DNA from: Spirochaetaceae bacterium
GTDB lineage: Bacteria > Spirochaetota > Spirochaetia > SZUA-6 > Bin103
Direction: 5' to 3'
DNA length: 58,144 nt
Assembly (NCBI GenBank): GCA_028818385.1
Contig: JAPPNY010000170.1
Coordinates: 1-58,144 of the forward strand
Every line of letters starts with the position of its first letter. The first letter of the stretch is position 1. Of this stretch, positions 2,316 to 25,609 are shown piece after piece. The notes beneath the pieces are model-generated. The model saw only the letters and a program-made list of their open reading frames with translations. It was not told where the DNA came from and searched no databases. Both the position numbers and the translations under genes were made by a program.

Positions 2316-2600
2316 ATGAAAGTTACGGGCTTGGATGCGCTGTCGCGCAAACTCAAAGAGATAGAATTGGCTACGGCTGGTCTCGATGGCGAGATCGCGC
2401 AGCTCGAATTCAATCCACACGATCCACAGAGCATTGAGGATGCGATCCAACAATTGAATTCTACGATCGACGGGAAACTCGCAGGTTACGGTCGCAACGA
2501 AATAGTTGCCAGAATCGCTGCAGAACTAAAGGAGAGAGGTCGCGGATTTATCATTGATCGAGCTGCCAAGGCTCGGCTAGAAGGAGAGGATAAGGAATGA
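2316..2600 (+). CDS. Small helical protein partnered with a TIR protein
   Basis: A 94-residue soluble protein, charged and probably mostly helical. It opens MKVTGLDALSRKLKEIE, a pattern I associate with small conserved proteins of accessory and phage-like regions, but I cannot assign a function. It has no signal peptide or membrane segment. The ATG of the next gene overlaps its stop codon (ATGA at 2597-2600), so the two are translationally coupled and probably act together. The stretch 2300-3500 is visibly richer in A and T than its neighbours, which suggests recent transfer. It could be a regulator, chaperone or sensor for the downstream TIR effector; that role is inferred from coupling alone. 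Confidence 0.72.
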   Translation: MKVTGLDALSRKLKEIELATAGLDGEIAQLEFNPHDPQSIEDAIQQLNSTIDGKLAGYGRNEIVARIAAELKERGRGFIIDRAAKARLEGEDKE

Positions 2601-3502
2601 CGATCGACTCTGCTATTGAGCAGATCAATGAGGCGATTCTCGATCTTCAAGCGTCCGACCACGACACTTACGGCCGTCCATTGCAGCGATTAGAGAGCGT
2701 CTTGGAATCCGAAGATCTCAAGCCAATTACGGACGCGATGAAGAGCAGAGTAGACTTCGACGCATTCCTTGCGGATGCAAACAGAGGCGACGAAGGCACG
2801 GGTGGCAGGGCCGGTCTCAACTGGCCAGACGATCGCACGGAGGAGCTTGGCCTGATGCTCGTTTTGATCGAGCGAGGCGCTAAGGATCCTCGCTGGTTCC
2901 TCAATGTAGCCTGCAATTACTATCATGGAGGAAGGAAGTATATAGAGTCCATAAGGAAAATTACGCGTTCTGCAATAATTCCGTTCGGTCGAGATTTCGC
3001 CAGACACTTGCGACAGAACAGATCGAGCATGCCTCCTTCGCGGGACGAGCCCTCCGATCTAGGACGCGTATTTGTTGTTCATGGGCATGACGAGGCTCCC
3101 AGAGAGATGGTTGCGCGGCAAATATCAGATTTAGGGCTTGAGCCCGTAATCCTACATGAGCAGCCCAACCAAGGTATGACCGTTATCGAAAAGCTGGAAG
3201 CCAATGGGAATGTCGGTTACGCCGTGATCGTACTTACTCCAGATGACATTGGTCGAGGCAAACTGGAATCGGAAGAGAAACCGCGTGCTCGCCAGAACGT
3301 CATTCTTGAGCTCGGTTATTTCTTGGCGCGACTTGGGCGCAAGAAGGTCATCGCTTTCTCGAAGGATGAAGTTGAGATTCCATCGGATTACATGGGTGTT
3401 GTGTACGTTCCCTTCGATGACGCAGGTGGATGGCGGATTAGACTGGGAAAGGAGCTCCAGAACGCTGGTTATGACATAGATTGGAATAGGATAATGAGAT
3501 GA
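2597..3502 (+). CDS. TIR-domain nucleotide-binding protein (CAP12/Pycsar-effector type)
   Basis: A 301-residue protein with two parts. Residues 1 to about 150 form an unassigned, probably helical region. Residues from about 156 form a TIR-like domain of the CAP12/Pycsar effector family: RVFVVHGHDEAPREMVARQ opens it, NQGMTVIEKLE (about 191-201) carries the likely catalytic glutamate region, and AVIVLTPDDIG and RQNVILELGYFLARLGR follow. Members of this family degrade NAD+ when activated in CBASS or Pycsar phage defence. No cyclase gene is nearby, so this is either a stand-alone sensor-effector or one controlled by the 94-residue partner it overlaps. Local base composition is lower in GC than the flanks. 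The domain call is strong; the NADase and defence role is inferred from family. Confidence 0.88.
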   Translation: MTIDSAIEQINEAILDLQASDHDTYGRPLQRLESVLESEDLKPITDAMKSRVDFDAFLADANRGDEGTGGRAGLNWPDDRTEELGLMLVLIERGAKDPRWFLNVACNYYHGGRKYIESIRKITRSAIIPFGRDFARHLRQNRSSMPPSRDEPSDLGRVFVVHGHDEAPREMVARQISDLGLEPVILHEQPNQGMTVIEKLEANGNVGYAVIVLTPDDIGRGKLESEEKPRARQNVILELGYFLARLGRKKVIAFSKDEVEIPSDYMGVVYVPFDDAGGWRIRLGKELQNAGYDIDWNRIMR

Positions 3503-3804
3503 GCGCGGGGGCCGACCGGGCCAAGGCGTTGTCTAAAGGCGGTTAGGGTCAGGAACCAGCTACGGTCGTCATCGCTTTCGAAGAGTGGGGCCGGTGACCC
3601 GTTTCCGCGCGTCGCTCGCAGGATCTTGGGAATCCCCGTAGACCTTCTCTCGGCCAAATCGAGCTCCTTCAGAAACTCGCCGATGCGGCGGTTTCGGAAA
3701 CGGCGACTGATTGCGCGGCGGGTCTGCAGGTCTTCCATGCGGATGGACCGGTCGGCGCCGGGAAAGCTCAAGATCGTCAGTTCCTGCGGCGTGATGCGTA
3801 CCCG
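3469..3804 (-). pseudogene. C-terminal remnant of an AlbA_2/RecG-like ATP-binding regulator
   Basis: The minus strand encodes a piece that reads VRITPQELTILSFPGADRSI, then RNRRIGEFLKELDL and STGIPKILRATRGNGSP. This is the characteristic C-terminal part of the AlbA_2-domain, divergent-AAA or RecG-like transcriptional regulator family. Those proteins are normally 400-500 residues. Here an in-frame stop at 3805-3807 precedes the fragment and no start codon or N-terminal domain is present. The fragment's tail (FRQRL and beyond) loses family resemblance and runs into the 3' end of the TIR gene. I interpret it as what is left of a gene deleted when the neighbouring unit arrived. Confidence 0.7.
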
Positions 3805-3840
3805 TCAGCCTTGCCGACGAACAGCGCCAGCGTTCGGCCA

Positions 3841-10086: not shown

Positions 10087-11970
10087 GTGAAGAGATTCAT
10101 CGGATTGATCGCGGGCCTCATGGTCATCGGTGCGATTGCGTCTGCGCAGTACATCGAGGGACCGTGGTTCGCGGAGGCGGTGGCGCGCGGCGACTTGCCG
10201 CCGATCGAGGAGAGGTTGCCGGTCGAGCCGCTGGTGCTGGCGCCCGGCGCCGGCTACGCGTTCCCGGCTGACGGCAGGCACACGGAGGGCTCCTACGACC
10301 GCAGCTCGACCGACCTGCCCAACATCCAGGGGCTGACCTCTACGCCGTTCAGAAATCACCGCTTCGAGGTCGAGCTGCTGCCGTGGGCCTGGAAGGGCTG
10401 GGAAGGCTCAGACGACAACATGACCTGGACGTTCTACCTGCGCGAGGGCATGAAGTGGTCCGACGGTGAGGACTACACCGCGGACGACATCGTGTTCTGG
10501 TTCGAGAACGTGCACGGCGACGGTGACGCCGCGATGCAGTACCGGGAAGCGGGCGCCATGAACAAGAACGCGGTGGCGGACGGGACCGAGCGCCTGGAGA
10601 AGGTGGACGACTACACCCTGCGCTTCCATCTCAAGGCACCGGACCCGCGCTTCGAGTGGCTGGTCGGACAGCGCTCCGAGCGTGAGCTGCTGAACGTCGA
10701 CGACCACTACCTGCCGCAGTTCCACCCGGCCGGCGGCGACGCTGAGGCGCTGGCCGCCAGGGTATCGGCGGGCGGGTTCGACACCTGGATGCAACTCTTC
10801 GAGGACCGGCGCGACCGTCATGGCAACACCAACCCGGACAAGCCGCACCTGATGCCGTGGGGCCCGTCGGATCCGCCGCCGGCCAATCCGTCGGTCTTCA
10901 CCGCCAACCCGTACAATTTCGCGGTGGATGACCGCGGCCAGCAGCTTCCCTACCTGGAGACGCAGCGCTACTTCCTGGTTTCCGACGGCGAGGCGCAGAA
11001 GCTGCGTCTGCTGGCAGGCGGCGACAGTTGGGGGATCATCAAGACCCTGGAGTCACTGCCGCTGGCCAAGCGCGCGCAGGAAGAGGGCAAGATCATGTTC
11101 CAGCTCACCCCGAAGGGCGACGCGTACAAGTCGACAGCGACGCTGTTCAACATGAACGCGACCGAGGAGTGGAAGGCTGAGCTGTTCCAAGACGTGCGCT
11201 TCCGCACGGCGTACTCTCTGTTCATCCCGCGGCGCAAGATCGCCGACATCATGTACGCAGGCGCCCCGCTGCCGACGCTGGGCGGCTTCATGTACGAGAC
11301 CGACCATCCGTGGTACCTGCCGGAGTTGGGCCAGTCGCCGCTGATCGAGCAGGACCTGGACCGCGCCAACGCGCTGCTGGACGAGTTGCTGCCGAACAAG
11401 GACGCCGACGGCTTCCGCCTCGACCCCGATGGCAAGCCGGTCACCTTTTACCTGGCGACCGTCACCCACGACGAGTGGGAGCAGGCGGCCAACATCATCA
11501 TGGAGGACCTGCACCTGATCGGTCTCAAGGCCAACCACCGCGCCACCGCGTGGGGCGGCTATGCGGCCATGGTCCAGTCGCGGGAGTGGGACATCATCGT
11601 CGACCAGAGCACCGAGGGCTGGAAGAGCCAGCTCCCGGAGCGGCAGTCGCTGATCGTTCCCACCGGCCGCTTCGGCCCGAACTGGGCCTACCTGTGGTGG
11701 GAGTGGCTGGACTCAGGCGGCGAGAAGGGCGAAGAGCCGCCCCAGCAAATCAAGGACAACTGGGATCTGTTCCACCAGATGATCCGGGAGGCGGACGCGG
11801 ACAAGCTCACCGAGCTGACCCACGAGTGGTACCGCCGCCAGGCCGAGCAGGTCTGGACCCTTCCGCACCTGACGTTCCCGCCCGAGTTCGACGTGTGGCA
11901 GCCCAACTTCAAGGGCGTCCACCCCAGGACCGGCCGGCCGTTCGAGTTCGGAGGCATGTGGTACGAGTAG
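10087..11970 (+). CDS. Peptide/oligosaccharide ABC transporter solute-binding protein (SBP family 5), orphan
   Basis: 627 residues. The GTG start follows AGGAGG at 10076-10081. A signal peptide (MKRFIGLIAGLMVIGAIASA) ends at SAQY. The mature N terminus has LPPIEERLPVEP, a lineage-specific motif shared with the two other binding proteins here (39974 and 55984). The family-5 hallmark WTFYLREGMKWSDG, then TADDIVFWFENV, lies about residue 115-140. It captures peptides or similar compounds in the periplasm for an Opp/Dpp-type importer. No permease or ATPase is adjacent, so it is an orphan that may feed one of the other transporters. A strong hairpin follows the stop. Confidence 0.92.
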   Translation: MKRFIGLIAGLMVIGAIASAQYIEGPWFAEAVARGDLPPIEERLPVEPLVLAPGAGYAFPADGRHTEGSYDRSSTDLPNIQGLTSTPFRNHRFEVELLPWAWKGWEGSDDNMTWTFYLREGMKWSDGEDYTADDIVFWFENVHGDGDAAMQYREAGAMNKNAVADGTERLEKVDDYTLRFHLKAPDPRFEWLVGQRSERELLNVDDHYLPQFHPAGGDAEALAARVSAGGFDTWMQLFEDRRDRHGNTNPDKPHLMPWGPSDPPPANPSVFTANPYNFAVDDRGQQLPYLETQRYFLVSDGEAQKLRLLAGGDSWGIIKTLESLPLAKRAQEEGKIMFQLTPKGDAYKSTATLFNMNATEEWKAELFQDVRFRTAYSLFIPRRKIADIMYAGAPLPTLGGFMYETDHPWYLPELGQSPLIEQDLDRANALLDELLPNKDADGFRLDPDGKPVTFYLATVTHDEWEQAANIIMEDLHLIGLKANHRATAWGGYAAMVQSREWDIIVDQSTEGWKSQLPERQSLIVPTGRFGPNWAYLWWEWLDSGGEKGEEPPQQIKDNWDLFHQMIREADADKLTELTHEWYRRQAEQVWTLPHLTFPPEFDVWQPNFKGVHPRTGRPFEFGGMWYE

Positions 11971-11996
11971 CGCCGATGCGCTGACCGTACTCGCCA

Positions 11997-12028
11997 CGAA
12001 GGGCATCCCGCCGGCGGGATGCCCTTCG
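11997..12028 (+). terminator. Perfect 16-bp palindromic hairpin after the binding-protein gene
   Basis: The segment is a perfect inverted repeat centred between 12012 and 12013 (arm CGAAGGGCATCCCGCC). It begins 26 bases after the stop codon. There is no T-tract, so it may act as a GC-rich terminator or as an mRNA 3'-end stabiliser. Confidence 0.7.
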
Positions 12029-12050
12029 CACTTAACGTGGAGGCAGAGGG

Positions 12051-12833
12051 ATGATCGACGCTGCCGCGATGGCTTGGCCGGAAGCGCGTCGCAGGATTCC
12101 GGCGAGGGGGCTCCGCGTGCCGGTGGCGCCACCGTGGCCGGCGATCGCCGGCTGCTTGATCTTGCTGCTGGCGGCGCCTGCGGTTCTGACGGCACAGGAC
12201 CGGCAGGAAGAGCGGGAGGAGATGGTGAACCGCCAGATCGCCGCACGCGGGGTAAACGACGAGCGCGTGCTTCAGGCGATGCGCACCGTGCCGCGCCATC
12301 GGTTCGTGCCGGAGCGCCTGTCGCGCTCGGCGTACAACGACCATCCGCTGCCGATCGGGGAGGGGCAGACCATCTCCCAGCCGTACATCGTCGCGCTGAT
12401 GACCGAGACGCTGGAGGTCGAGGAGGACGACCGCGTGCTGGAGATCGGCACGGGGTCGGCGTACCAGGCGGCGGTGCTGGCGGAGCTGGTGGCGGAGGTG
12501 TACTCCATCGAGATCCGCGGCCCGCTCGCCGAGTCGGCGACGGCGCTGCTCGAGGAGCTGGAGTACGCCAACGTGCAGACGAAGCACGCCGACGGCTACT
12601 ACGGCTGGCCGGAGGCGGCGCCTTTCGACCACATCATGATCACCGCCGCGGTCGACCACGTGCCGCCGCCGCTGCTGGAGCAACTCGCGGCCGGCGGCCG
12701 GCTGATCCTGCCGCTCGGCAATCCGTTCGCCCACCAGAGCCTGGTGGTGGTCACCAAGCTCGAGGGCGGCTTCCGCATGCAGGAGATCCTGGGCGTGCTG
12801 TTCGTGCCGATGACCGGCGCCGCCCTGAACTGA
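12051..12833 (+). CDS. pcm: Protein-L-isoaspartate O-methyltransferase with N-terminal signal/anchor
   Basis: 260 residues. It repairs isoaspartyl residues using S-adenosylmethionine. Family landmarks: [50 protein letters not shown]-binding motif [18 protein letters not shown] (usually GSGYQ, so one Gly to Ala change), and the C-terminal VLFVPMTG. A hydrophobic stretch (about 28-45, ending VLTAQD) suggests export or membrane anchoring, as in periplasmic PCMTs. The stop codon overlaps an ATG (TGATG at 12831-12835) that would begin MSLTFAAA. That is the expected start of the membrane protein now located at 15.4-17.8 kb, showing that the two genes were once adjacent and coupled. Confidence 0.93.
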
Positions 12834-12862
12834 TGTCGCTGACCTTCGCGGCCGCACCCCCT
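12795..12862 (+). repeat. Copy 1 of a roughly 65-bp direct repeat (pcm 3' end)
   Basis: The native copy: the last codons of pcm ([12 protein letters not shown]) plus the start ATGTCGCTGACC of the former downstream gene. Related copies lie at 13923-13988 and 15333-15399, in the same orientation, each directly after one inserted gene. Confidence 0.85.
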
Positions 12863-12876
12863 CTTGGAGGAATCCC

Positions 12877-13845
12877 GTGAGTGATGTCCCGCACCGAGAC
12901 CGCCCCCCCTACCGGAAGCCGATCGTCGCCGCGCTGGCGGTCCTGATCGGCGTGCTGCTGCTGCTTGCCGGCTGCCGGCAACCGGGCATGGTTCCAGACT
13001 CGCTGGACGCTGCGCAACTGCGCATCGCCGCCTGGAATCTTGAGCATCTGAACGACACCGACGACGCTGGCTGCGTGCCCCGGGACGAAGCGGACTACGA
13101 CGCCATCGCCGACCGTATCCGGGAGATCGCCCCGGACGTGGTGGCGTTCCAGGAAGTGGAGAACATGGAAGCAGCGCTTCGGGTGTTCCCCGCAACACAC
13201 TGGCATGTGGAAGTGTCCATGCGTCCCGAACCGGCAGCAGCGCCTCGCGAATGCTGGGGACTTCCCGGCAAGTACCTCCACCATCAGGCGACCGGATTCG
13301 CCATCCGCAAGGAGATCGTCTACCGTCGCAACGGAGACTTGGAATCCCTCGGCGACCCGGCTTCGTCGCAGCGCTGGGGTACTGACATTACCGTCACGTT
13401 CGGCGACCGCGAACTGCGCCTGCTGTCCGTGCACCTCAAGTCGGGATGCTGGTCGGCCGACCAAGACGCGAGCGATTCCCGCACGCAGATCTGCGCCACG
13501 CTGAGAAACCAGGTTCTCGAACTCAGATCCTGGGCCGACCGCCGGGGGGACGAGCGGACCGCTTTCGGCATCCTGGGCGACTTCAACCGCCGTCTCGCCA
13601 TAAGCGACGACTGGGCCTGGAGAGTGCTGTCGCCGGAATCATCTCCGCTCGATCTCCTCACCGCGGACATTGAGACTCAGTGCGATCCGCGATACGAGGA
13701 ATTCATCGACCACATCGTGCTCGACCCGACTGCGGCAGCATTGCTTGTCCCGGGATCGACCCGTGAATGGCCCCGTCACGATGACCATCCGGACCACTGC
13801 GCAGTGTCGACCGATCTCCGGGTCAATCGGCCAGCCGTCCCGTGA
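12877..13845 (+). CDS. Endonuclease/exonuclease/phosphatase-family lipoprotein
   Basis: 322 residues. GTG start with GGAGG at 12866-12870. Hydrophobic segment LAVLIGVLLLLAGC ends in a lipobox Cys (about residue 32), so the protein is probably anchored in the membrane facing the periplasm. The EEP fold is shown by LRIAAWNLEHL, VVAFQEVEN, LLSVHLKSGCW, FGILGDFNRR and the C-terminal DDHPDHC, which supply the metal-binding and catalytic Asn, Glu, Asp and His positions. Substrate may be DNA, RNA or phosphoesters. It sits between copy 1 and copy 2 of the pcm-tail repeat, so it appears to have been inserted behind pcm. Confidence 0.85.
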   Translation: MSDVPHRDRPPYRKPIVAALAVLIGVLLLLAGCRQPGMVPDSLDAAQLRIAAWNLEHLNDTDDAGCVPRDEADYDAIADRIREIAPDVVAFQEVENMEAALRVFPATHWHVEVSMRPEPAAAPRECWGLPGKYLHHQATGFAIRKEIVYRRNGDLESLGDPASSQRWGTDITVTFGDRELRLLSVHLKSGCWSADQDASDSRTQICATLRNQVLELRSWADRRGDERTAFGILGDFNRRLAISDDWAWRVLSPESSPLDLLTADIETQCDPRYEEFIDHIVLDPTAAALLVPGSTREWPRHDDHPDHCAVSTDLRVNRPAVP

Positions 13846-13855
13846 CCGGAACTCG

Positions 13856-13961
13856 ATCGAGATCCGCGGCTGGCTGGCCGGATTCGGCGCCGTTCGATCA
13901 CCGCATGCAGGAGATCCTGGGGGTGCTGTTCGTGCCGATGACCGGCGCCGCCCTGAACTGA
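13856..13961 (+). pseudogene. Internally deleted remnant of a second, diverged pcm gene
   Basis: This 106-base stretch is a mosaic of three pcm segments in order. ATCGAGATCCGCGG corresponds to IEIRG. GGCTGGCCGGATTCGGCGCC onward corresponds to [10 protein letters not shown] of pcm and here reads GWPDSAPFDH. CGCATGCAGGAGATCCTG onward corresponds to [19 protein letters not shown] and the stop. The middle block is diverged from the intact pcm at several bases, so it derives from a different allele. It reads out of frame between blocks and cannot be functional. Confidence 0.75.
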
Positions 13962-13988
13962 GGGTTCGCTGACGCTGCTGATCGCGGC
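13923..13988 (+). repeat. Copy 2 of the pcm-tail direct repeat
   Basis: Nearly identical to copy 3 from GTGCTGTTCGTGCCGATGAC through TGAGGGTTCGCTGACGCTGC to ATCGCGG, with two mismatches seen by eye. Copies 2 and 3 flank the AAA ATPase gene. Confidence 0.85.
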
Positions 13989-14008
13989 GAGCCCAAGATT
14001 CGAGGATC

Positions 14009-14014
14009 TATAAT
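14009..14014 (+). promoter_or_regulatory. Consensus -10 element TATAAT upstream of the AAA ATPase gene
   Basis: A perfect TATAAT in an otherwise GC-rich setting lies 69 bases before the TTG start. No good -35 hexamer is seen at 17 bases. It indicates that the ATPase gene brought its own promoter. Confidence 0.4.
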
Positions 14015-14082
14015 TAGCACCCTGGGCGGAGCGTTCACGGAGTTTGTGATAAGGTACTTGTAGCCCGTTAGGAGGTTGCGGA

Positions 14083-15330
14083 TTGGCCCAAGGACCGGAC
14101 GTCGACGACCACATGACTCATGGAACCGACTGGCGAGAGCTGTCCTGGCGAGTCAGTCAAGTTTTCACGCCGGCGGTTCCGATCAGTGAGGACGAGCTGT
14201 TCGCGGGAAGGGCGGACCAGGTCGACAAGGCGATCGACGCGATCAATCAACTCGGCCAGCACGCGGTCGTGTATGGAGAACGCGGCGTCGGGAAGACCTC
14301 GCTGGCAAACGTACTCTCGTCCCGCTTGGTGAGTCACTCAGGCGAGCAGGCCATCGCACCGCGCGTCAACTGTGATGCCACCGACGACTTCCCTTCCCTG
14401 TGGAGGAAGGTTCTGGCGAAGGTGGAGATCACGGAGACGGAGCGGACGCCGGGATTCACCGGCGTCCCGCGCGAAACAGCGCGAACGGCGGCAGATGCGT
14501 TCCCTGCCGACACGGACATCACCCCTGACGCCGTGCGCGGCTTCCTGACCTGGATGGGACAGAGCCGAGTGCTCCTGGTGATCTTCGACGAGTTCGACCG
14601 GCTGACGGATCAGCCGACCCGGCGCTCGATGGCGGACACCATCAAGGCGCTTTCCGACCACGCTGTCCCCGCGACGATCGTCGTCGTCGGTGTCGCGGAT
14701 ACGGTCAGCGAACTGATCGCCGAGCACGAATCCATCGACCGGTCACTCATCCAGATCCCAATGCCGCGCATGGAACCCCACGAGCTCGGCGAACTGCTCG
14801 ACAAGGGAATGCCGAAGCTGGGCATGAAGCTGGAAGTCAAGGCTCGGCAGCAGATCATCGACCTGTCACAAGGATTGCCACCGTACACGCACCGGCTCGC
14901 CCTCCATGCGACCAGAGCTGCGATCCGAACGGAACGACGGACCATCACGGAAGCCGACGTCAAGCACGCCATCAAGGATGCCGTGGAGAATGCGCAGCAG
15001 AGCCTGCGAGAAAACTACAGGAAGGCGATTTCGAGCCCACAGACCGGAAACCTGTTCGGGCAGGTGCTGCTGGCCTGCGCACGAGCGAAGACCGACGACT
15101 TCGGCTACTTTGCGGCGGCTGATGTAAGAACGCCGATGTCGAGAATCATGAGAAAGCGGTACGAGATTCCGAGCTTCGCAAGGCATCTGAACCGGTTCTG
15201 CCAACCTGAGCGTGGATGCGTGCTCAGGAAAGAGGGCGAGAAGCATCGGTACCGCTATCGGTTCAGCGATCCGCTCATGCAGCCTTTCGTTATCATGAAG
15301 GGCATCGTCGACAGCGGAAACGGGATGTAG
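14083..15330 (+). CDS. Orc1/Cdc6-like AAA+ ATPase with C-terminal winged-helix-like region
   Basis: 415 residues from a TTG start that has GGAGG at 14071-14075 seven bases upstream; a later ATG at 14113 lacks such a site. Walker A GERGVGKTS is at 65-73, Walker B LLVIFDEFD at 164-172, a sensor-1-like ATIVVVGVAD segment near 200, and LPPYTHRLALHATRAA in the lid. The last about 110 residues (from NLFGQVLLACARAKT to FSDPLMQPFVIMKG) look like a winged helix. Such single-gene STAND/AAA_16 ATPases occur in accessory regions and some act in phage defence, but no effector domain is visible. Flanked by direct repeats of the pcm tail, so it is an inserted gene. Confidence 0.82.
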   Translation: MAQGPDVDDHMTHGTDWRELSWRVSQVFTPAVPISEDELFAGRADQVDKAIDAINQLGQHAVVYGERGVGKTSLANVLSSRLVSHSGEQAIAPRVNCDATDDFPSLWRKVLAKVEITETERTPGFTGVPRETARTAADAFPADTDITPDAVRGFLTWMGQSRVLLVIFDEFDRLTDQPTRRSMADTIKALSDHAVPATIVVVGVADTVSELIAEHESIDRSLIQIPMPRMEPHELGELLDKGMPKLGMKLEVKARQQIIDLSQGLPPYTHRLALHATRAAIRTERRTITEADVKHAIKDAVENAQQSLRENYRKAISSPQTGNLFGQVLLACARAKTDDFGYFAAADVRTPMSRIMRKRYEIPSFARHLNRFCQPERGCVLRKEGEKHRYRYRFSDPLMQPFVIMKGIVDSGNGM

Positions 15331-15332
15331 AC

Positions 15333-15399
15333 GTGCTGTTCGTGCCGATGACCGGCGCCGACCTGAGCTGAGGGTTCGCTGACGCTGCTGATCGCGGCC
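15333..15399 (+). repeat. Copy 3 of the pcm-tail direct repeat
   Basis: Begins two bases after the stop of the AAA ATPase and runs into the frame of the membrane aminopropyltransferase-like gene. It carries GACCTGAGCTGA where copy 2 has GCCCTGAACTGA, and lacks the ATG found at the corresponding place in copy 1. Confidence 0.85.
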
Positions 15400-15525
15400 G
15401 CGGCTGCCTCCTTCGCCGCCCTGGCGTACGAGGCGCTCCTGGTCCGGTTCTTCTCGCTCTCGCAGTGGAACCACCTGACGTTCCTGGTCCTGGGCGTCGC
15501 GCTGCTCGGCTTCTCCGCCTCGGGG

Positions 15526-17763
15526 GTGGTGCTGGCCGCTCTCGTGTCCCGTGGGCCGCGGGCGTCATCCGTGCTGCGCCGTCCCGCGGGCATTGCGGTC
15601 CTGCTGGCGGCGCTGTCGCTGGCCGTGCTGGGTTCGTTCGCGGCGCTCCGCGCCATGGAGCTGGACTACTTCCGCATCCCGCTGGAGCTGGGCCAGCTCG
15701 CACTGCTGGCCGTGTCGTTCCTGGTCCTTGCGGTACCGTTCGCGATCGCCGGACTGGTGACCGCGCTCGCCTACGCCGACCCGGACCTCCCGGCCGGGCG
15801 CACGTACGTGGCGGCGATGGCCGGCTCCGGGCTGGGCGCCGCCGCGCCGGTGGGGCTGCTGCCGGCGTTCGGTGTAGCCGGCGCGGTCGCGGCGATCGCG
15901 GGAGTTCCCGCGCTCCTGGCGGTCGCGATGGCAGGGCGGCGGGCCGGGCGCGGCGGGCGTTCGGTGCCGGGAGCGGCAGCCGGCGCCGCGGCGGCCGCGG
16001 TGGCGATCGGATCGCTGGCCACCGGCCTGATCGGCGAGGTGCAGCCGTCATCGTACAAGCTCGGCTACCAGGCGCTGCAGTTCCCGGACACGGAGGTGGT
16101 CGAGCGCCGTACCACGATCCGTGGCCGCTACGAGCGGCTGCAGGGGCCGGCGCTGCGCTTCGCCCCGGGGCTGAGCCTGCGCTGGATGGAACGGTTTCCG
16201 CGTCAGGACGCGCTGCTGACCGACGGGGACGCGTCGCTGTTCGTCCCGCGCGATCCCGACCCGCGCTATGCCGGGGACCTGCTCGGCTCGGTCGGTTCGG
16301 CCTTGGTGAGCGATGCGCGCAACGCGCTGGTGCTGCAGGCGAGCGGCGGCACCGCGCTGCCGATCGTGGTCCAGGCCGGGGTGCCGCGGGTCACGGTGGT
16401 GGATCCGTCGGCCTGGCGTGCGGCGGCGGTGCGCGCCGCGGTCGCGGAGCTGGGATGGGACGGACCGGTCACCGTTCGCCGCTCGTCGCTGCGCGGCTTC
16501 ACCGCGCGCACCGGTGAGCGCTACGACCTGATCTACCTGGATCACGCCGGCGCGTCGGTGCCGGGGGTGGAGAGCCTGAGCCGCCAGTTCACGCTCACCG
16601 TCGACGCGTTGCGGAGCTACCTGGACCTGTTGACCGAGGACGGCGTGCTGGTGCTGGGCCGCAAGCTGTCGCTGCCGCCGTCCACCAGCGTGCGCGCCGC
16701 GGCCACGGCCCTGGAGGCGCTCGCGAGCCGGGTGTCGGAGCCGGAGCGGCACCTGGCGATGCTGCGCTCTTTCGAGAGCTTCGTGCTAGCCGCGTCGCGG
16801 ACGCCCTTGTCGGCCGAGCGGCGGGCGGCGGTCCGCTCGTTCGCGCACGCGCGGGGTTTCGATCTGGTCTACCTGAGCGACATGAGCGGTGAGGAGGCGA
16901 ACCGCTTCGCCGTCCTGGTGGAGCCGCACTATCACGGCGCGATCGACGGGCTGATCGCCGCCTGGCGGGAGGGACGAGCGTCCGGCTGGTTGCGGGCACA
17001 GGTGCTGGACGTGGCGCCGCGCCGCGACGGCCGACCGTTCTTCAGCCACACGCTGCGCTGGGCGCGCATCGGCGAGCTGGCCGCGGCGCTCGGCGGACGC
17101 TGGTTCGGGTTCCTGCTGTCCGCGGAAGTGGTGGTGGCTGCCGTGATCGGCATCTCCGCCCTGGCCGCGGCGCTGCTGCTGGCGCTGCCGGCGGCGGCGG
17201 GACGTCCGGCCGGCCGGCTTTCGCCCCCCGCGTTCGCCTACTTCCTGGCGGTGGGCGCCGGGTACATCTGGGCGGAGCTTGCCCTGATCGGGGTGTTCAC
17301 CTTGCTGGTCGGCGATCCCGTGGTCGCGGTGGTGGTGGTGCTGGCGGCCATGCTCACCCTGTCGGGCCTGGGCGGACTGGCTTCGGGGCGCATCGGGATC
17401 GAGCGCCTGCCGTTGGTGCTGCTCCTGATCGCCGGGCTGCTGGCGGTCGCGGCGCTGACGGCGTTCCCGCTGGTCCGGTGGCTGCTGGCGCTACCGGCGG
17501 TGTTTCGTGTCGCCGGCGCCGGGCTCCTGCTGGCGGCGGTGGCGATTCCGCTGGGCCTGCCGTTTCCGTCCGGCATGCGACTGCTCGCTCGGCAGCCGTA
17601 CGCGACCGCGCGGGCGTGGGCGGCCAACGGCGCCGCGTCCGTGGTCGGCGCGGCACTGGCGCCCCAGATAGCCTGGGACCTCGGCATCCCGGCGCTCGTC
17701 GTGCTCGCCGCCGCCGTCTACCTCGGCACGGCCCTGGCCGCACGCCGGGCCGCGGTACGGTGA
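15526..17763 (+). CDS. Membrane protein with spermidine-synthase-like domain; normal start lost
   Basis: 745 residues from the first usual start codon (GTG at 15526). The frame is open back to 15367, and the upstream residues LTLLIAAAAASFAALAYEALLVRFF plainly belong to the protein as its first membrane helix. No ATG, GTG or TTG exists there. Layout: about five N-terminal helices, a soluble SAM-fold domain (VLQASGGTALPIVVQAGV, VTVVDPSAW, RYDLIYLDHAG, DGVLVLGRK) and about seven C-terminal helices. This resembles the SpeE-type domain embedded in a membrane protein; the glycine motif is degenerate, so catalysis is doubtful. The family start survives beside pcm at 12833 (MSLTFAAA), so insertion has beheaded this gene. 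Confidence 0.8.
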   Translation: MVLAALVSRGPRASSVLRRPAGIAVLLAALSLAVLGSFAALRAMELDYFRIPLELGQLALLAVSFLVLAVPFAIAGLVTALAYADPDLPAGRTYVAAMAGSGLGAAAPVGLLPAFGVAGAVAAIAGVPALLAVAMAGRRAGRGGRSVPGAAAGAAAAAVAIGSLATGLIGEVQPSSYKLGYQALQFPDTEVVERRTTIRGRYERLQGPALRFAPGLSLRWMERFPRQDALLTDGDASLFVPRDPDPRYAGDLLGSVGSALVSDARNALVLQASGGTALPIVVQAGVPRVTVVDPSAWRAAAVRAAVAELGWDGPVTVRRSSLRGFTARTGERYDLIYLDHAGASVPGVESLSRQFTLTVDALRSYLDLLTEDGVLVLGRKLSLPPSTSVRAAATALEALASRVSEPERHLAMLRSFESFVLAASRTPLSAERRAAVRSFAHARGFDLVYLSDMSGEEANRFAVLVEPHYHGAIDGLIAAWREGRASGWLRAQVLDVAPRRDGRPFFSHTLRWARIGELAAALGGRWFGFLLSAEVVVAAVIGISALAAALLLALPAAAGRPAGRLSPPAFAYFLAVGAGYIWAELALIGVFTLLVGDPVVAVVVVLAAMLTLSGLGGLASGRIGIERLPLVLLLIAGLLAVAALTAFPLVRWLLALPAVFRVAGAGLLLAAVAIPLGLPFPSGMRLLARQPYATARAWAANGAASVVGAALAPQIAWDLGIPALVVLAAAVYLGTALAARRAAVR

Positions 17764-17838: not shown

Positions 17839-18723
17839 CTACCTTCCATGCCGATGGATCTCGTCCCGGTCGAAGGTCCAGCCGGCGCGGTCGCCGCCCG
17901 CCATCTCCGAAAGGCGCTTCATCTCTGCGATCTGCTCTTCAGCCTCGCGCAGGACGCGGGCCGCGGTCGGCCGCTTGGCGCGGCGCGCCAGATCGATCGG
18001 TCGATTGCCGGCATGATCCAGCGCGTCGGGATCGGCGCCGGCATCGAGCAGCATGCGCACCAGCTTGCCGGCGACTCCGGTGGCGGCCGCGCAGTGCAGG
18101 GACGTTCGGCCGTCGCGTTTACGCGGGCGGTTGACGTCGGCCCCGTGCGCGATGAGCAGCGCCACGTGGGAGGTGCGGCCATGGTTGCACTGGTGCTGCA
18201 GCGCCGTGTCGGCGGACGCGTCCCAGTCGACGTCGGCGCCCTGCTCGATCAGCAGCGGCACCAGGTGCTCGGCGTTGCGCCCGCACACCGCGCTGCGCAC
18301 GTACCCGTCGTCAGTCGCCGCGACGTCGATGCCGACGTCGGAGATCAGATAGCGAACCGCCGCCTCATGCCCGCCCGTGAGCGCCCAATGCAGCGGCGTG
18401 CCGTAGCAGAGCGTCTCACTCCACGGCGGGGACGCCTCCCGTGCGATCGCCTCTAGCTGCGGGACCTCGCCCCAGGTCGCGGCCGACCAAGCGTCCCAGC
18501 GGATGCCGTAGGGCCGAAACAGGTCGAGAGCATCGCGGATGCCCGCACCGCCGGCGAGCGAGAACACCGTCCGGCCGTAGCGATCCCGTTGCCACAGCCA
18601 GTCGCTGTCCCCGCGTTGCTCGACTTCTCCTGCGATGAGCCCGCTCGCTTCGGCGAAGTCGCGCGCCTTGATGGCGCGCATGAGCAGGACCATGAACGGC
18701 GGCGCTTTACTCGCTTTACTCAT
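17839..18723 (-). CDS. Ankyrin-repeat protein 1
   Basis: 294 residues, no signal peptide. Repeats are visible as TPLHWALTGGHEAAVRYLI, then LLIEQGADVDWDASADTALQ, ALLIAHGADVNRPRKRDGRT and MLLDAGADPDALDHAGNRPI, about five in all, followed by a short charged C-terminal tail. Ankyrin repeats bind other proteins; the partner is unknown. It is the left border of a seven-gene ankyrin cluster and is divergent from ankyrin gene 2, whose start is 33 bases away. Confidence 0.88.
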   Translation of the reverse strand: MSKASKAPPFMVLLMRAIKARDFAEASGLIAGEVEQRGDSDWLWQRDRYGRTVFSLAGGAGIRDALDLFRPYGIRWDAWSAATWGEVPQLEAIAREASPPWSETLCYGTPLHWALTGGHEAAVRYLISDVGIDVAATDDGYVRSAVCGRNAEHLVPLLIEQGADVDWDASADTALQHQCNHGRTSHVALLIAHGADVNRPRKRDGRTSLHCAAATGVAGKLVRMLLDAGADPDALDHAGNRPIDLARRAKRPTAARVLREAEEQIAEMKRLSEMAGGDRAGWTFDRDEIHRHGR

Positions 18724-18756
18724 CCGTGACCGACGCTCCCCGGCTCACGTTGTAGC

Positions 18757-19791
18757 ATGCAGAGCGCGATGTCGGTCCTGACCGGGAAAGCCAGCGACTT
18801 TCTGAGAGTCGCCGCGGCAGCCGCGGGCCGGGGCGACCTCGATACGGTACGGGCCGTATTGGCAGAAAAGCCCGTGTGGATCCGACGTATCGGCTCGCAC
18901 GGCCGCACCCTGCTGTGGGAAGCGGCGTACCGGGGCCGGCTCGAAATGGTGGAGTACCTGCTCGACCGGGGTGCCGATATCGACGCGTGCGGCTGTCACT
19001 TCACGCCGCTCCTGGTCGAGATCTCCCCGTACTGCGCCGCTCGGTACCGACGGCACGAGGCGGTGGCCGACCGTCTGCTCGAGCGCGGCGCGGCGACCGA
19101 CATCTTCACCGCCGCGTTTCTCGGGGATCGCGAGGCGGTCGGCGCACACCTGGAGCGCGAACCGCGGCTGGCGACGGCAGAGAAGCCGCAGCACGATGCC
19201 GGCCTGCGTGCGACCGTGCTGCACTACGCGGTCAGCGCGAGCCGGCTGGACATCGTCACCACGCTGCTGGCGCGCGGCGCCGACCCTCGTCCGGACAGCG
19301 ACTGGCTGATCCGTTTTGCGATCTGGCGGGATCGGGCCGATATCCTGGGGGCGCTCATCGACGCCGGCGCGGATCCGACCCGGGCCGAGATGCCGCGATC
19401 GGGAGTCTCGGCCGAGATCGCCGCGGTCCTGGCCGCGCACGGTGCCGGCGTCAACGTCGACCATGCCGAGGGTGGCTGGCCGCCGCTGGTGTTCCAGGCG
19501 CGCGGCGACCGGGGCGGGAACGTCGACCGCGTGCGCGACCTGCTTGAACGGGGCGCCGATGTCAACGTCAGGAACCACAAGGGACAGACGGCGCTGCACT
19601 GCGCGGCCAGGGCCGGGTTCCTGGACATCGTCGCCTTGCTGCTCGACCACGGCGCGGACGTGGACGCCACCGACGACGACGGCCGCACCCCGCTCGCCGC
19701 AGCGCTGCACTCGACGGTCAGGGACAAGGCGCGGCTCTCGGCCGTCATCGAGCTGCTGGAGACTGCCGGCGCCGCCGATCCCGCGGGGTGA
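18757..19791 (+). CDS. Ankyrin-repeat protein 2
   Basis: 344 residues (an alternative start is the second Met at 18769). N-terminal helical segment, then repeats such as RTLLWEAAYRGRLEMVEYLL, VLHYAVSASRLDIVTTLLA, QTALHCAARAGFLDIVALLL and RTPLAAALHS. A conserved break motif, ATDIFTAAFLGDREAVGAHL (about 115-134), recurs in most cluster members. Probably cytoplasmic. Function is unknown. Confidence 0.88.
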   Translation: MQSAMSVLTGKASDFLRVAAAAAGRGDLDTVRAVLAEKPVWIRRIGSHGRTLLWEAAYRGRLEMVEYLLDRGADIDACGCHFTPLLVEISPYCAARYRRHEAVADRLLERGAATDIFTAAFLGDREAVGAHLEREPRLATAEKPQHDAGLRATVLHYAVSASRLDIVTTLLARGADPRPDSDWLIRFAIWRDRADILGALIDAGADPTRAEMPRSGVSAEIAAVLAAHGAGVNVDHAEGGWPPLVFQARGDRGGNVDRVRDLLERGADVNVRNHKGQTALHCAARAGFLDIVALLLDHGADVDATDDDGRTPLAAALHSTVRDKARLSAVIELLETAGAADPAG

Positions 19792-19810
19792 GCCCGGGGC
19801 GGACGGCCGG

Positions 19811-20224
19811 TTACGCGAGCACCTCGAACGCGTTCGTGCGCGTGCGGCCGTACCGGTAGACCGCAAAGTCGCTGTCGAACGAAATCACGCGCGTGATTCC
19901 CAGGCGCTCCATCAGAGCGAAGGAGGTGCGATCCACCAGCGAGAAGTCCTGGTCGCGGAAGCGTTCGCCGATCGACCACGCCGATTCAAGATCGGCGTCG
20001 GTGGTCTGTTCGATGGATGCGACTCCCATCCGCAGACCGCCCCAAAAGGTCTCCGCCGCGGCATCGGAAATGAAGTGATGAATGAGGCGCCACGTCTCGA
20101 CGAGTACGTGGTCACTCGTGACGAGCGGCTGGTCCCGCGCCAGCAACCGCTTCGCACGTCCGTTGTGGCGGTCGTTCGTGTCGGCCGCGGCATACCAGGC
20201 CGACGTGTCCACGAAGACGCTCAT
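19811..20224 (-). CDS. vapC: PIN-domain toxin 2
   Basis: 137 residues. SVFVDTSAWYAAADTNDRHN opens the PIN fold with its first Asp; LVETWRLIHHFI supplies the Glu; SLVDRTSFALMERLG and ISFDSDFAVY carry the later acidic residues. It overlaps the stop of its antitoxin gene by four bases (20221-20224). A ribonuclease toxin by family. Confidence 0.9.
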   Translation of the reverse strand: MSVFVDTSAWYAAADTNDRHNGRAKRLLARDQPLVTSDHVLVETWRLIHHFISDAAAETFWGGLRMGVASIEQTTDADLESAWSIGERFRDQDFSLVDRTSFALMERLGITRVISFDSDFAVYRYGRTRTNAFEVLA

Positions 20225-20475
20225 GCGGAGCGGTTGCGCTTTGCTGAACCGAATGCTTCCGCGACCATGCGGTCCTTGTCGGCGCCGATGTCTGTCCCGA
20301 CCGACGCGCCAAGATCGAAGACGATGGAACGGTCCATGATCCGTGGAGACTCGGCCAGATCCCGGTCCACCAGGCGCCGTATGTACTCGGCGAACGAAAC
20401 GCCAAGCGCTGCGGACCGGGCGCGGACCCGGGCGTGCAACTCCGACGTAAGTGATATCTGCGTTCGCACCATCAT
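20221..20475 (-). CDS. Ribbon-helix-helix antitoxin of PIN module 2
   Basis: 84 residues. MMVRTQISLTSELHARVRAR is a typical RHH strand plus first helix, and GVSFAEYIRRLVDRDL the second. The C-terminal half should wrap the toxin. The gene sits inside the ankyrin cluster and is coupled to the toxin by a 4-base overlap. Confidence 0.88.
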   Translation of the reverse strand: MMVRTQISLTSELHARVRARSAALGVSFAEYIRRLVDRDLAESPRIMDRSIVFDLGASVGTDIGADKDRMVAEAFGSAKRNRSA

Positions 20476-20543
20476 TATGGCGCCATCATACCGCTGCCAC
20501 CATGCAGCGTCAATGCCGCGCCGCTAGGTGCCGGACTGGAGGC

Positions 20544-21671
20544 TCATCGCCTGAAGCGCTTGGCCTCCTTGCGGGCGATCTGAAAGGCGGTCTTGCCGCT
20601 CCTGTTGCGCGCCTCGGGGTCGGCGCCCGCCTCCAGGAGCGCCTCCACGGCGGCGACCCGGCCCTCGTAGGTCGCGCGATGCAGGGGCGTGCGGCCCTTG
20701 CGGTCCTGCGTGTTCAGGTCGGCGCCGTGCGCCGCGAGCAGGCGGATCATATCCGCCCGATCCTGCTCGGCGGCAAGCTGGAGCGGCGCACGCATGGCCC
20801 GGTTGCAGGCGTCGAGTCCGGCCCCGGAGGCGACCAGCAATTCCGCGCATGCCGCCGACCCGGTGCGCGCTGCCCAGTGCAGCGGCGTCATCGCGTAGGG
20901 GTCGGCCGCGTTCACGATCCCGGAGTCGTCCGCGATCAGCTCACGCAGTCGGGTGGTGTCGTCGCGGGCGCTCGCGGAGTACACGTCGTAGCAGGCGCCG
21001 TCGTCGATGAGGATCTGCGCCACAACCAGCTTTCCCTGCCGGGCGTTGCGACGCAACTCGCCGACGGGGCCTTCGCCCGTGTCCGTCTCGTCCCAGTGGC
21101 AGGGAGCGAGCGCCTCCTGCAGCGAGGTGGTGCCGCGCTCGCCGTTGCCCTTGATCGGCAGCTCGTGATGCACGCCGGCTCCGTACTCGATCAGCAGCCG
21201 TGCGACCTCGGGATACCCACCCCAGGCGGCCCAGTACATCAGCGGCAGGTTGTCCGGCCAGCCGGTATGCGGGCGAACCGAGACGCCGGTTGCGTCGGCC
21301 GCTCCCGACTCGAACACCGCCCGCAGCGTATCGGCCGCCGCCGCCCACGCCGCCTCGTGCAGGACGTTGTACGCCGTGTGATCGATCGCGAGCGGCACGT
21401 CGTGGGCCAGCAGGAACGCCGCGGCCGGCCCGCAGCCGCGCTTGCCGATCACGGCCGTCAACAGCGACGAGCCGATCCGTTCCAGCACCGCCGGCTCGGC
21501 GGCCAGCGTCTCCTGCATCCGTGAGACGTCCGGCCGGCCGTCCCAACGCTCGGGTGCAGGACCCATCGCCGCGACGATGAGCTGTTGCTCCGCAGCCGTG
21601 AGGTCCGGCTTCGCTTGATCGCGCAGGAACCAGTTGCCCCGGAAGTCTGTGACAGCCTGGGTGGTGTCCAA
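20544..21671 (-). CDS. Ankyrin-repeat protein 3
   Basis: 375 residues. The first about 90 residues are not obviously repeats. Then come YNVLHEAAWAAAADTLRAVF, PLMYWAAWGGYPEVARLLIE, the family break motif CYDVYSASARDDTTRLRELI, and four regular repeats ending RTPLHRATYEGRVAAVEALL and KTAFQIARKEAK. Probably cytoplasmic; partner unknown. Confidence 0.88.
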   Translation of the reverse strand: MDTTQAVTDFRGNWFLRDQAKPDLTAAEQQLIVAAMGPAPERWDGRPDVSRMQETLAAEPAVLERIGSSLLTAVIGKRGCGPAAAFLLAHDVPLAIDHTAYNVLHEAAWAAAADTLRAVFESGAADATGVSVRPHTGWPDNLPLMYWAAWGGYPEVARLLIEYGAGVHHELPIKGNGERGTTSLQEALAPCHWDETDTGEGPVGELRRNARQGKLVVAQILIDDGACYDVYSASARDDTTRLRELIADDSGIVNAADPYAMTPLHWAARTGSAACAELLVASGAGLDACNRAMRAPLQLAAEQDRADMIRLLAAHGADLNTQDRKGRTPLHRATYEGRVAAVEALLEAGADPEARNRSGKTAFQIARKEAKRFRR

Positions 21672-21721
21672 GGATCTACTCCCTCAGCTTGACTCTGGCG
21701 CCACGTTCTCGAAGCAGATCG

Positions 21722-22087
21722 TCAGTCAGGGATCTGGCTGGCAACGATGCCGATGCAGTTGCCCTGCGGGTCGGCGAACAGGGCGAACGTGGCCGACTTC
21801 GGGATGGTCGTCACCGGCAGGATGACGGTCGCCCCGAGATCCACTGCCTTCTGGAGGCTCGTGTCGATGTCATCGACCTGCGCATAGAAGGTGACCAGAC
21901 TCGAATCGCCGTCCGTTCCCGTGATGCCGCCGTCGATGCCGGCCGGATCATCCTTCGCCCTGGTGGTGACCAGGCCGTAGTCGTTCACGCCGACGTCGAT
22001 CTTCCAGTCGAACAGGCTGGAGTAGAAATCGCGCAGCGCAGCCGGATCCTGCGACCGAATCTCGAAGTGAACGACCGGATTCTTCAT
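21722..22087 (-). CDS. VOC-fold (glyoxalase/bleomycin-resistance-like) protein
   Basis: 121 residues. VVHFEIRSQDPAALRDFYSS and LFDWKIDVG give the first beta-alpha-beta unit, and ATFALFADPQGNCIGIV the second, typical of single-domain VOC proteins that dimerise to form a metal site. GAGG precedes the ATG by a suitable distance. Substrate unknown. It lies between ankyrin genes 3 and 4 on the same strand. Confidence 0.87.
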   Translation of the reverse strand: MKNPVVHFEIRSQDPAALRDFYSSLFDWKIDVGVNDYGLVTTRAKDDPAGIDGGITGTDGDSSLVTFYAQVDDIDTSLQKAVDLGATVILPVTTIPKSATFALFADPQGNCIGIVASQIPD

Positions 22088-22120
22088 CGTGGACCTCTCG
22101 GCGTCGAGCGTAGCAGGAGC

Positions 22121-23206
22121 TTACCGTTCAGCCAGGAACTCGATCAGCTTGGTTCGTTTCTTGGATCGGGCCAGGTCGAGGGCCGTCTGACCGGCGGCGT
22201 CCCGCCGTCCGACGTCGACGCCTCGCTCCACCAGCAGGCGCAGCAGCGGCACGCCGGCGCCGGAGTTGACCGCCACGTGCAGAGCGGTTTCGCCAGTCTG
22301 GCTCATCACCTCGTTCGGATCACAGCCGTGATCCAGAAACCACGTGACGCCCTGCACGCTGCGCATGTTGACCGCGCAGCCCAGCGGGTTGTAGCCGCCG
22401 TGGTGGGCGGTGCCGCGCGTGCCGTTCATGTCGATGGCGTCGTGGCGCAGCAGCGACTCCAGGACGTCGAACTGGCCGTCGCATGCCAGGTGGTTCGGCG
22501 TGTCGTCGTCGCCCAGGCGGGCGCCACGCTCCAGCAGCAGGTCGGCGATCGCGCCGTTGTCGGCCCAGCACGCCTGATCCAGCGCCGTGGCCGGATCAGC
22601 GCCGTGGCCGAGCAGCAGCGTAGCCGTGGTGAGGCGGTCCTCATCGCCGCCCGCGTTGCAGCGTGCGCAGTACTGCAACGGCAGCCAGGAGCCGTCGCGC
22701 GAATCGGCATCGGCCTGCGTCGCCGACGTCGGGGATTCCGCCAGGATGCGGGCGACCCGCTCGTGGTCGGCGATCGCGCAGGCGGTGTAGAGGTCGAGAT
22801 CGCCGTCGACGCGCTCCAGCAGCACCGGCACGTACTCCGTGCAGCCCATGGCGGCGACGGTCACGGCGTCCACCAGGTAGTAGCTGCCGCGCAGCATCGG
22901 GTCGGCACCGTGCTCCAGCAGCAGCCGCACCGTCTCGGTGTGGCCGGCCGTCTTCGGAGCGGTCTTCTTGAACTCCACCGTGCGGTGCAGCGGCCGGTAG
23001 CGGTGCGCGGTGGGCGCCAGCACGTTGACGTCCGCTCCGTGGTCGAGCAGGAACGCGACCACTTCGGCATGACCGCCGTGGCAGGCGTTCATCAACACTT
23101 GCCAGTGCCCGGCGATCGCCGGATCGGCCGTGACCGCCGCTTTGACCGTTTTCAGATCGCCTTTACCGGCGGCTCCCGCCGCCGCCTTCGCCCGCGCCTT
23201 GTCCAT
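22121..23206 (-). CDS. Ankyrin-repeat protein 4
   Basis: 361 residues. N terminus MDKARAKAAAGAAGKGDLKT leads into repeats: VLMNACHGGHAEVVAFLLDH, HTETVRLLLEHGADPMLRGS, break motif DLDLYTACAIADHERVARIL, then TALDQACWADNGAIADLLLE, CAVNMRSVQGVTWFLDHGCD, TALHVAVNSGAGVPLLRLLV and TALDLARSKKRTKLIEFLAE at the end. Starts on the minus strand opposite ankyrin gene 5. Confidence 0.88.
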   Translation of the reverse strand: MDKARAKAAAGAAGKGDLKTVKAAVTADPAIAGHWQVLMNACHGGHAEVVAFLLDHGADVNVLAPTAHRYRPLHRTVEFKKTAPKTAGHTETVRLLLEHGADPMLRGSYYLVDAVTVAAMGCTEYVPVLLERVDGDLDLYTACAIADHERVARILAESPTSATQADADSRDGSWLPLQYCARCNAGGDEDRLTTATLLLGHGADPATALDQACWADNGAIADLLLERGARLGDDDTPNHLACDGQFDVLESLLRHDAIDMNGTRGTAHHGGYNPLGCAVNMRSVQGVTWFLDHGCDPNEVMSQTGETALHVAVNSGAGVPLLRLLVERGVDVGRRDAAGQTALDLARSKKRTKLIEFLAER

Positions 23207-23370
23207 GGGTCCGTGAGCGTACCAAGGCGGCGTCCTGCCGGCAACGAGACGCTCTCGTTTCTCGATTCCGTCGGCTGCGCTGTTTCACCATGAAGATCGG
23301 TGCCCTCGAGTTGCGCCGTGGCTGCTGCAGATCCATACTCGCCCCATCCTTGACTGGAGGCCCGGGTGAC

Positions 23371-24177
23371 ATGAGCACGACGTTCGAGGAAGCGGTCCAG
23401 ACCATCATCACGGGGAACGCGACCGCCCTGAAGGGGCTCCTGCAGGAAGCCCCCGGCCTCATCGCAGCCCGCTCCGCATCCGGGCACCGAGCGACCCTGC
23501 TGCACTATGTGGCGGCCAACGGCGTCGAGGACGAGCTGCAGAAGACACCGGCGAATGCCGTGGAAATAGCCCGCATCCTGATCGAGGCCGGAGCAGAGGT
23601 CGACGCCCTTGCAGACACCTACGGCGGCGGAACCAATCAGACGACGCTGTGCCTGCTGGTCTCGAGTTGCCATCCTGCGGAAGCGGGCCTGCAGCCGGCA
23701 CTCGCGCAGGTTCTGTGCGATGCGGGAGCAGCCGTGAACGGCGTCGCCGATGACGGAGCGCCGCTGGCGACCGCCTTGATGTTCAGCTACACCCGGTCCG
23801 TCGACGTGCTGGTGCAGTGTGGCGCCCGCATCGGCAACCTGCTGTTCGCCGCCGGCGCTGGTGACCTGGAACGGGTACGGTCCTTCTTCGACTGCGATGG
23901 CCGACTCGAGCCCGGTGCGGCATACGACGGGCCTCACTTCCCAATCGCGGGTGATGAGAAAGCCGTGCTCGCGCAGGCGCTCGGAATGGCCTGCTATCAC
24001 CTGCGGCTCGAGGTGATCAGATTCCTGCTCGAACAGGGTGCGGACGTGAATTCGCGATCCCACATTCTCGGCGGTTCCTCAACCGGGCTGTACTGGGCAA
24101 CCCATGGTTTTCATACGCAGGAAGAAGAGCGCCCCATCGTCGGGTTTCTGCGTTCGGTGGGCGCCGAGTCACAGTGA
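23371..24177 (+). CDS. Ankyrin-repeat protein 5
   Basis: 268 residues from the ATG at 23371, preceded by TGGAGG at 23355-23360. It begins MSTTFEEAVQTIITGNATAL and contains TLLHYVAANGVEDELQKTPA and TYGGGTNQTTLCLLVSSCHP. The same order of segments is found in the last about 270 residues of the giant ankyrin protein at 25737-29396, so this is a stand-alone paralogue of that module. Ankyrin gene 6 begins seven bases after its stop, so the two are probably co-transcribed. Confidence 0.85.
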   Translation: MSTTFEEAVQTIITGNATALKGLLQEAPGLIAARSASGHRATLLHYVAANGVEDELQKTPANAVEIARILIEAGAEVDALADTYGGGTNQTTLCLLVSSCHPAEAGLQPALAQVLCDAGAAVNGVADDGAPLATALMFSYTRSVDVLVQCGARIGNLLFAAGAGDLERVRSFFDCDGRLEPGAAYDGPHFPIAGDEKAVLAQALGMACYHLRLEVIRFLLEQGADVNSRSHILGGSSTGLYWATHGFHTQEEERPIVGFLRSVGAESQ

Positions 24178-24183
24178 GGCAGG

Positions 24184-25515: not shown

Positions 25516-25609
25516 GGCCCTCCGGCACCGAGGCTCCCGCCTGCAGCAGCAGGCGAATCACCGTCTCGTAGTGCCCTTGACGAGCCGCGCGCCGCCCGGC
25601 ACTGTGGAG
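25516..25609 (-). pseudogene. Short ankyrin-repeat remnant on the minus strand
   Basis: Reading the minus strand from 25609 gives LHSAGRRAARQGHYETVIRL, then LLQAGASVPEGLTLG, an unmistakable ankyrin repeat. It is preceded by an in-frame stop (25610-25612) and has no start codon. It is the leftover of an eighth ankyrin gene wedged between genes 6 and 7. Confidence 0.55.

Follow-up and report, generated by a model that had tools for sequence, protein, structure and literature searches.

The 58,144-nucleotide window analysed here, contig JAPPNY010000170.1 of a Spirochaetaceae bacterium (GCA_028818385.1), carries the protein-L-isoaspartate O-methyltransferase gene pcm, followed by an EEP-family lipoprotein gene, an AAA ATPase gene and a membrane protein gene. 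The end of pcm occurs three times in this region, once in the intact gene and once after each of the two genes behind it. We consider it probable that the EEP and AAA genes were added by two serial single-gene insertions at the junction between pcm and the membrane gene, each of which left a direct duplication of that junction.

Three copies of the pcm-membrane gene junction

Intact pcm occupies 12051..12833 (PF01135, 208 bits; NF001453 above cut-off), and its protein is 89% identical to that encoded on L001, contig CATQHW010000001.1 of an uncultured Spirochaetia metagenome-assembled genome (G001) that matches the window around the locus at about 88% of nucleotides. All four genes lie on the + strand. 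Copy 1 of the junction (12773..12855) consists of the tail of the intact gene and about 22 bases that, judged by eye against L001, resemble a shortened start of the membrane gene. It is followed by the first cargo unit (12854..13851), a single EEP gene (coding sequence 12877-13845) with 23 bases before its start codon and 6 after its stop codon, whose joints share 1-2 bases by eye. Copy 2 (13851..13988) begins as a pcm relic, made up of internal pieces from pcm position 12502 on with internal deletions, and proceeds through an intact tail and stop codon into about 27 bases of membrane-gene start. The second cargo unit (13989..15331) is a lone AAA ATPase gene (coding sequence 14083-15330, TTG start) that is preceded by about 95 bases and ends one base past its stop codon. 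Copy 3 (15332..15398) holds the last 39-40 bases of the pcm frame including the stop codon, and 27 bases of the start of the membrane gene. The membrane gene itself, the original downstream neighbour of pcm, is at 15376..17763 and is 87% identical over 795 residues to a gene that stands directly behind pcm in L001. Its true start codon is uncertain: at its aligned start (region 15364-15526) it has no ATG, GTG or TTG, the first listed start being a GTG at 15526, and the L001 gene likewise shows no in-frame ATG at the aligned start by eye.

A 27-base stretch of the pcm end is exactly identical and in direct orientation at 12795, 13923 and 15333, and no match to it with three or fewer mismatches arose in 100 dinucleotide shuffles. 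In a self-BLAST of the window (at least 28 bases, at least 85% identity, within 10 kb) the pcm-tail copies are the only direct repeats listed, along with two weak inverted pairs. Copies 1 and 2 align over 73 columns at 94.5% (E 2e-25), copies 1 and 3 over 52 columns at 90%, and copies 2 and 3 over 66 bases at 97% (E 5e-26). Within the pcm tails, copies 1 and 2 differ at one of 61 sites and copies 2 and 3 at two of 39. The membrane-gene start accompanies the pcm end in every copy; by eye, its 27 bases are the same in copies 2 and 3, while the head behind copy 1 is both shortened and different in sequence. An earlier note on this DNA, made from the letters alone, had described the threefold direct pcm end, the EEP gene between copies 1 and 2, the AAA gene between copies 2 and 3, and the agreement of copies 2 and 3 past the stop codon where copy 1 differs. 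Each of these points is borne out by the repeat comparisons and domain matches; the shortened membrane-gene start behind copy 1 is an addition to them. This shortened head still reads ATG TCG CTG ACC.

The same note took the pcm fragments in front of copy 2 to derive from a diverged allele. The fragments are real: two internal pieces of pcm recur at 13851-13880 (87%) and 13872-13907 (83%), and by eye the deletions between them are located at short shared words. A diverged allele as their source is unproven: at the 90 relic sites that can be placed, copies 1 and 2 show 5 differences, of which two are derived in copy 1 and three in copy 2 with L001 as outgroup. The two duplications are of different length, 66 bases around the AAA gene and about 350 around the EEP gene, the latter composed of the tail and the discontinuous pcm pieces.

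Also in keeping with the note, no integrase came to light. Among the five genes between 10087 and 17763 (both cargo genes, pcm, the membrane gene and the gene before pcm), scanned against Pfam and in four cases NCBIfam, none has a recombinase, transposase or insertion sequence (IS) domain; no dedicated search for IS ends was made. Rfam gave no match to an RNA element in 11500-16500 up to E 0.5.

The junction is empty in 13 of 26 related genomes

In L001 the site is empty: pcm stops at 7994 and the membrane gene aligns from 8001. A relative of the membrane protein was found in 24 of 26 genomes of the order. In 13 of the 26 (G001, G002, G003, G005 to G010, G014, G015, G018 and G023), pcm stands directly before the membrane gene on the same strand and the site is empty. 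In two more, G011 and G013, the pair is close and its joint is not cleanly readable; these were counted as unclear. The other 11 were not judged, as they showed no pcm directly in front in the stretch examined, or no match. No occupied site was seen among the 13 readable genomes, of which G001 is the only one close enough to inform the recent past. The inserted state is thus most likely derived and unique in this sample, and in our best explanation the ancestral order was probably pcm followed directly by the membrane gene. The earlier note had proposed that relatives be compared for an empty site and for other cargo between tail repeats; the empty site was found, and other cargo was not seen in the readable genomes.

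The cargo genes

The EEP gene matches PF03372 with 25.6 bits (cut-off 24.5), was called a lipoprotein from its sequence by eye, and had no match in PADLOC or NCBIfam. Only one of the 26 genomes, G003, has a relative, at an unrelated locus. The two EEP proteins are 82% identical, compared with 62% for pcm and 44% for the membrane protein of the same two genomes. The DNA that the window and G003 have in common, at 86%, is 12854-13851, that is, the one gene with its short flanks on either side. In G003 (L051:4538-8176) the EEP gene adjoins a gene for a 611-residue ATPase-like protein and a small toxin-antitoxin-like gene pair, both named by eye. Both cargo genes have a lower G+C content (AAA gene 0.58-0.66, EEP gene about 0.63-0.66) than pcm (about 0.70) and the membrane gene (0.72-0.78). 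The gene before pcm, however, is at 0.63-0.68, so a foreign origin of the EEP gene cannot be read from G+C content alone.

The AAA gene, identified by its AAA_16/nSTAND1 domain, has weak relatives in five of the 26 genomes of the order, and in the phylum relatives at E 1e-30 were found in 3 of 392 genomes, with 34% identity at best. The best 120 of 4202 matches include proteins from other contigs with 90-96% identity, as well as a relative at 79% that is named as Acidobacteriota. Plasmid relatives reach at most 45% and two viral-contig relatives 48%. A shared partner gene was not recognised around the relatives in one plasmid neighbourhood and one viral list of open reading frames. Assignment to a known defence system was rejected, the PADLOC and NCBIfam matches being weak (best in PADLOC PDC-S59, 28.6 bits), and no PDB relative was found at E 0.001.

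The EEP and AAA genes have separate histories, and both probably moved as single genes. These separate histories, together with the empty site in L001, support the capture of single genes at this junction, and with it the suggestion of the earlier note that genes were captured repeatedly at one place together with a duplicated gene tail.

Partial gene copies elsewhere in the family

Direct repeats no more than 8 kb apart were collected from 1.61 Mb of family DNA (the window and parts of G001, G002, G003 and G004) and 0.79 Mb of comparison DNA (50 kb of a Paraburkholderia plasmid and parts of G007, G008, G013, G014, G020, G021 and G023), and a script sorted them into paralogues, within-gene repeats, arrays and partial gene copies. 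The family DNA yielded 25 chains of partial copies and the comparison DNA two, one each in G008 and G020 (binomial p 0.002), where the chains are not independent, most come from G001, and G+C content is 0.65-0.69 in the family and 0.46-0.69 in the comparison (G008 0.55). The 25 comprise 17 and 7 from the scans, together with the window, to which the script had given the label 'tandem'. As a control on orientation, chains of all kinds numbered 58 direct and 10 inverted in the family and four direct and two inverted in the comparison; this control is supportive only, as inverted chains were made with somewhat different chaining and direct chains include tandem paralogues.

Seven of the 25 chains, at six loci including the window, fit the scheme, in which an intact gene is followed by cargo and then by a relic with the gene's end preserved. 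Two belong to a mirror-image locus, one lies beside a DDE_3 transposase gene, two have the tail on the wrong side, and one is within a larger copied stretch; these 13 are the chains that were read. The five loci beyond the window were read by hand, and their repeats are between 31 and several hundred bases long. The pcm finding has its cleanest analogue in a thiamine-pyrophosphate enzyme gene of G001 (L088:2627-3700), where the cargo is a small leader-peptide-like gene that matches the nitrile hydratase alpha profile and the relic, with an internal deletion, is 97% identical. Three further cases are in G001: a DUF488 gene with a Uma2 gene as cargo (relic 97%), a Uma2 gene with an N6_N4 DNA methylase (N6_N4_Mtase) gene as cargo (relic of 46 bases, 87%), and a BNR-repeat gene followed by a Uma2 gene, a small open reading frame and a 31-base tail (97%). 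In G003, an OppC gene is followed by DUF2971 and GIY-YIG genes and by a relic in two pieces (96% and 88%). A sulfatase gene of G001 (L105:6346-10876) shows the pcm arrangement in mirror image, with an upstream 5' relic that is split by a further insert. G001 also contains dense arrays of short direct repeats at C1:67762-72572 and 742445-747908, with 184 and 192 matching pairs.

Origin of the duplicated junction

The two foreign genes would have entered the junction in two separate events, not by a single import of a finished array. The EEP event would have duplicated about 330 bases of pcm and 22-27 bases of the membrane gene, and the AAA event about 66 bases of the junction. In each event the upstream copy would stay whole and the downstream copy would start inside pcm and continue into the neighbour, after which the freed pcm pieces would shrink by deletion. 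The route would most likely be additive integration, in which one exchange between the repeated stretch and a cargo-carrying circular or partner molecule, or an equivalent illegitimate event, would yield in one step the intact gene, its flank, the cargo, a gene piece and the untouched neighbour. The upstream copy would then supply the end of pcm and the downstream copy the start region of the membrane gene. The copies presumably persist because pcm ends so near the beginning of its neighbour that the two genes both depend on the junction. An insertion between nearly overlapping genes would keep both alive only if the joint is duplicated, and a duplicated junction must hold the pcm end as well as the start of the neighbour, which would be why every copy contains both.

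Several observations weigh against serial insertion. The bases behind the stop codon differ strongly between copy 1 and copies 2 and 3 although the pcm tails are nearly identical, a difference that an imported allele explains no worse than a copy made within the same genome. An allele with one insertion alone was not found among the genomes examined, and for this reason the two events are ones that we infer. The five loci elsewhere are analogues by anatomy only, as they come without an empty sister site for comparison. In G001 the chains of genes 253981-255135 and 805167-806453 are those with the tail relic on the wrong side, the chains beside the transposase gene and in the larger copied stretch fall outside the scheme as well, and several other differences between the window and G001 have no flanking repeat.

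The different sequence behind copy 1 is also what would be expected if an incoming allele had displaced the resident one by homology-facilitated illegitimate recombination. A pcm-EEP segment from a donor strain would have recombined within pcm through its homologous end, its other end would have joined illegitimately inside the resident pcm, and the resident tail would be the relic. We regard this as possible but doubtful. Of the differences between intact genes and partial copies, 47 of 96 in all twelve cases fall at third codon positions (37 of 68 once the two rows for the gene at 253981-255135 are set aside), which speaks for displacement; such an excess is also expected if the intact gene alone evolves under selection. 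A like route is proposed for stacked immunity genes with displaced effector ends (PMC5361080). Displacement needs a donor that already carries cargo behind pcm, so it would explain the spread of the arrangement and not its first capture, and the 5 differences in 90 sites between copies 1 and 2, with changes on both sides, are few for it. The codon-position and outgroup counts favour neither displacement nor serial insertion.

The earlier note had likened the locus to integration hot spots at which the invader restores the end of its target. A mobile element with its own recombinase would here aim at the end of pcm and carry a copy that restores the gene, and two insertions at one place, with a tail copy after each, are what it should leave. 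The comparison with relatives does not support this (13 of 26 genomes joined and empty, two unclear, 11 not judged, one close), and the absence of a recombinase domain from the five genes scanned, the unequal duplicated lengths and the like anatomy behind unrelated genes elsewhere make such a hot spot very improbable. Chimeric joining of alleles or repeats during assembly is the least credible explanation of all: substitutions and deletions distinguish the copies from one another, the genes around them are complete, and like structures are present in the assemblies of other genomes. Serial insertion might further reflect a dedicated, integrase-free route in this spirochaete family, by which single genes, trimmed closely at the ribosome-binding site and the stop codon, enter behind resident genes whose ends are duplicated in the process, both neighbours staying functional, frequently (many relics per megabase) and repeatably at one junction; we consider so general a process unlikely.

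Relation to known systems

Minimal mobile elements of Neisseria are small groups of genes that are exchanged at sites between conserved genes, with no integrase involved. To our knowledge they are not defined by duplicated gene tails, and they differ from the pcm site in that no other cargo was found there in relatives. An integrase-dependent island at the 3' end of a gene is at odds with two findings: no recombinase gene among the five genes scanned and no other cargo in the 13 readable relatives.

The closest pattern is insertion with long target duplication, reportedly described by Nobusato et al. (Gene 259:99, 2000) as a natural pattern in Helicobacter. As related in later papers, it was described for Helicobacter, often with restriction-modification genes, as a gene inserted relative to a close genome with a long and variable direct target duplication on both sides (via PMC1643837, PMC3154945, PMC3031569, PMC4978471). 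The pcm locus agrees with this in the empty allele of L001, the long direct repeats of varying length and the absence of a transposase or IS domain from the five genes scanned. It differs in having lone EEP and AAA genes as cargo, two of them stacked at one junction, in a spirochaete and with decayed relics. Restriction-modification cargo, an association of the pattern and not a requirement, is not present at pcm, while Uma2 and N6_N4_Mtase genes are cargo at the other loci.

Stacked immunity gene arrays of Vibrio are explained by homology-facilitated illegitimate recombination (PMC5361080), and there, as at pcm, genes inserted one after another behind a conserved part leave the ends of older genes downstream. 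As presented there, effector-immunity modules displace effectors, whereas pcm is intact and its cargo is unrelated to it. In conjugation experiments with E. coli (PMC3240628), 56 of 60 clones showed single-crossover integration with partial duplication of the target, the duplications measuring 109-950 bp in 14 clones that were sequenced; here too the inserted DNA comes to lie next to partial copies of its target. Unlike the pcm locus, that system used an experimental plasmid with a cloned lacZ end as donor.

The insertion pattern itself belongs to a kind already known. Novel features are the two inserts stacked at one junction, the lone non-restriction genes as cargo and the phylum, and perhaps also the frequency of such scars in one family; a phrase search of the literature accessible to us found no paper that pairs long target duplication with spirochaetes. 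The entry of single genes into chromosomes without mobile elements is poorly understood. If a lineage keeps scars that can be read as gene, cargo and tail relic, such events could be counted and dated, and long target duplication would prove not to be confined to Helicobacter and its restriction-modification genes. Short gene ends that lie between genes and are missed by annotation would find an explanation as well.

Other differences between the window and G001

Window positions 1622-3823 form a clean-ended difference to G001 (643570/643568) with no flanking direct repeat, and a TIR-like gene within it (2597-3502) matches the candidate defence family PDC-S35. A second clean difference, of 3.7 kb at 25731-29430, also has no flanking repeats and contains one open reading frame of 1244 residues that is ankyrin-like by eye. 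A cluster of genes that by eye resemble ankyrin-repeat genes extends over 17839-29396, and much of this cluster has no match in G001.

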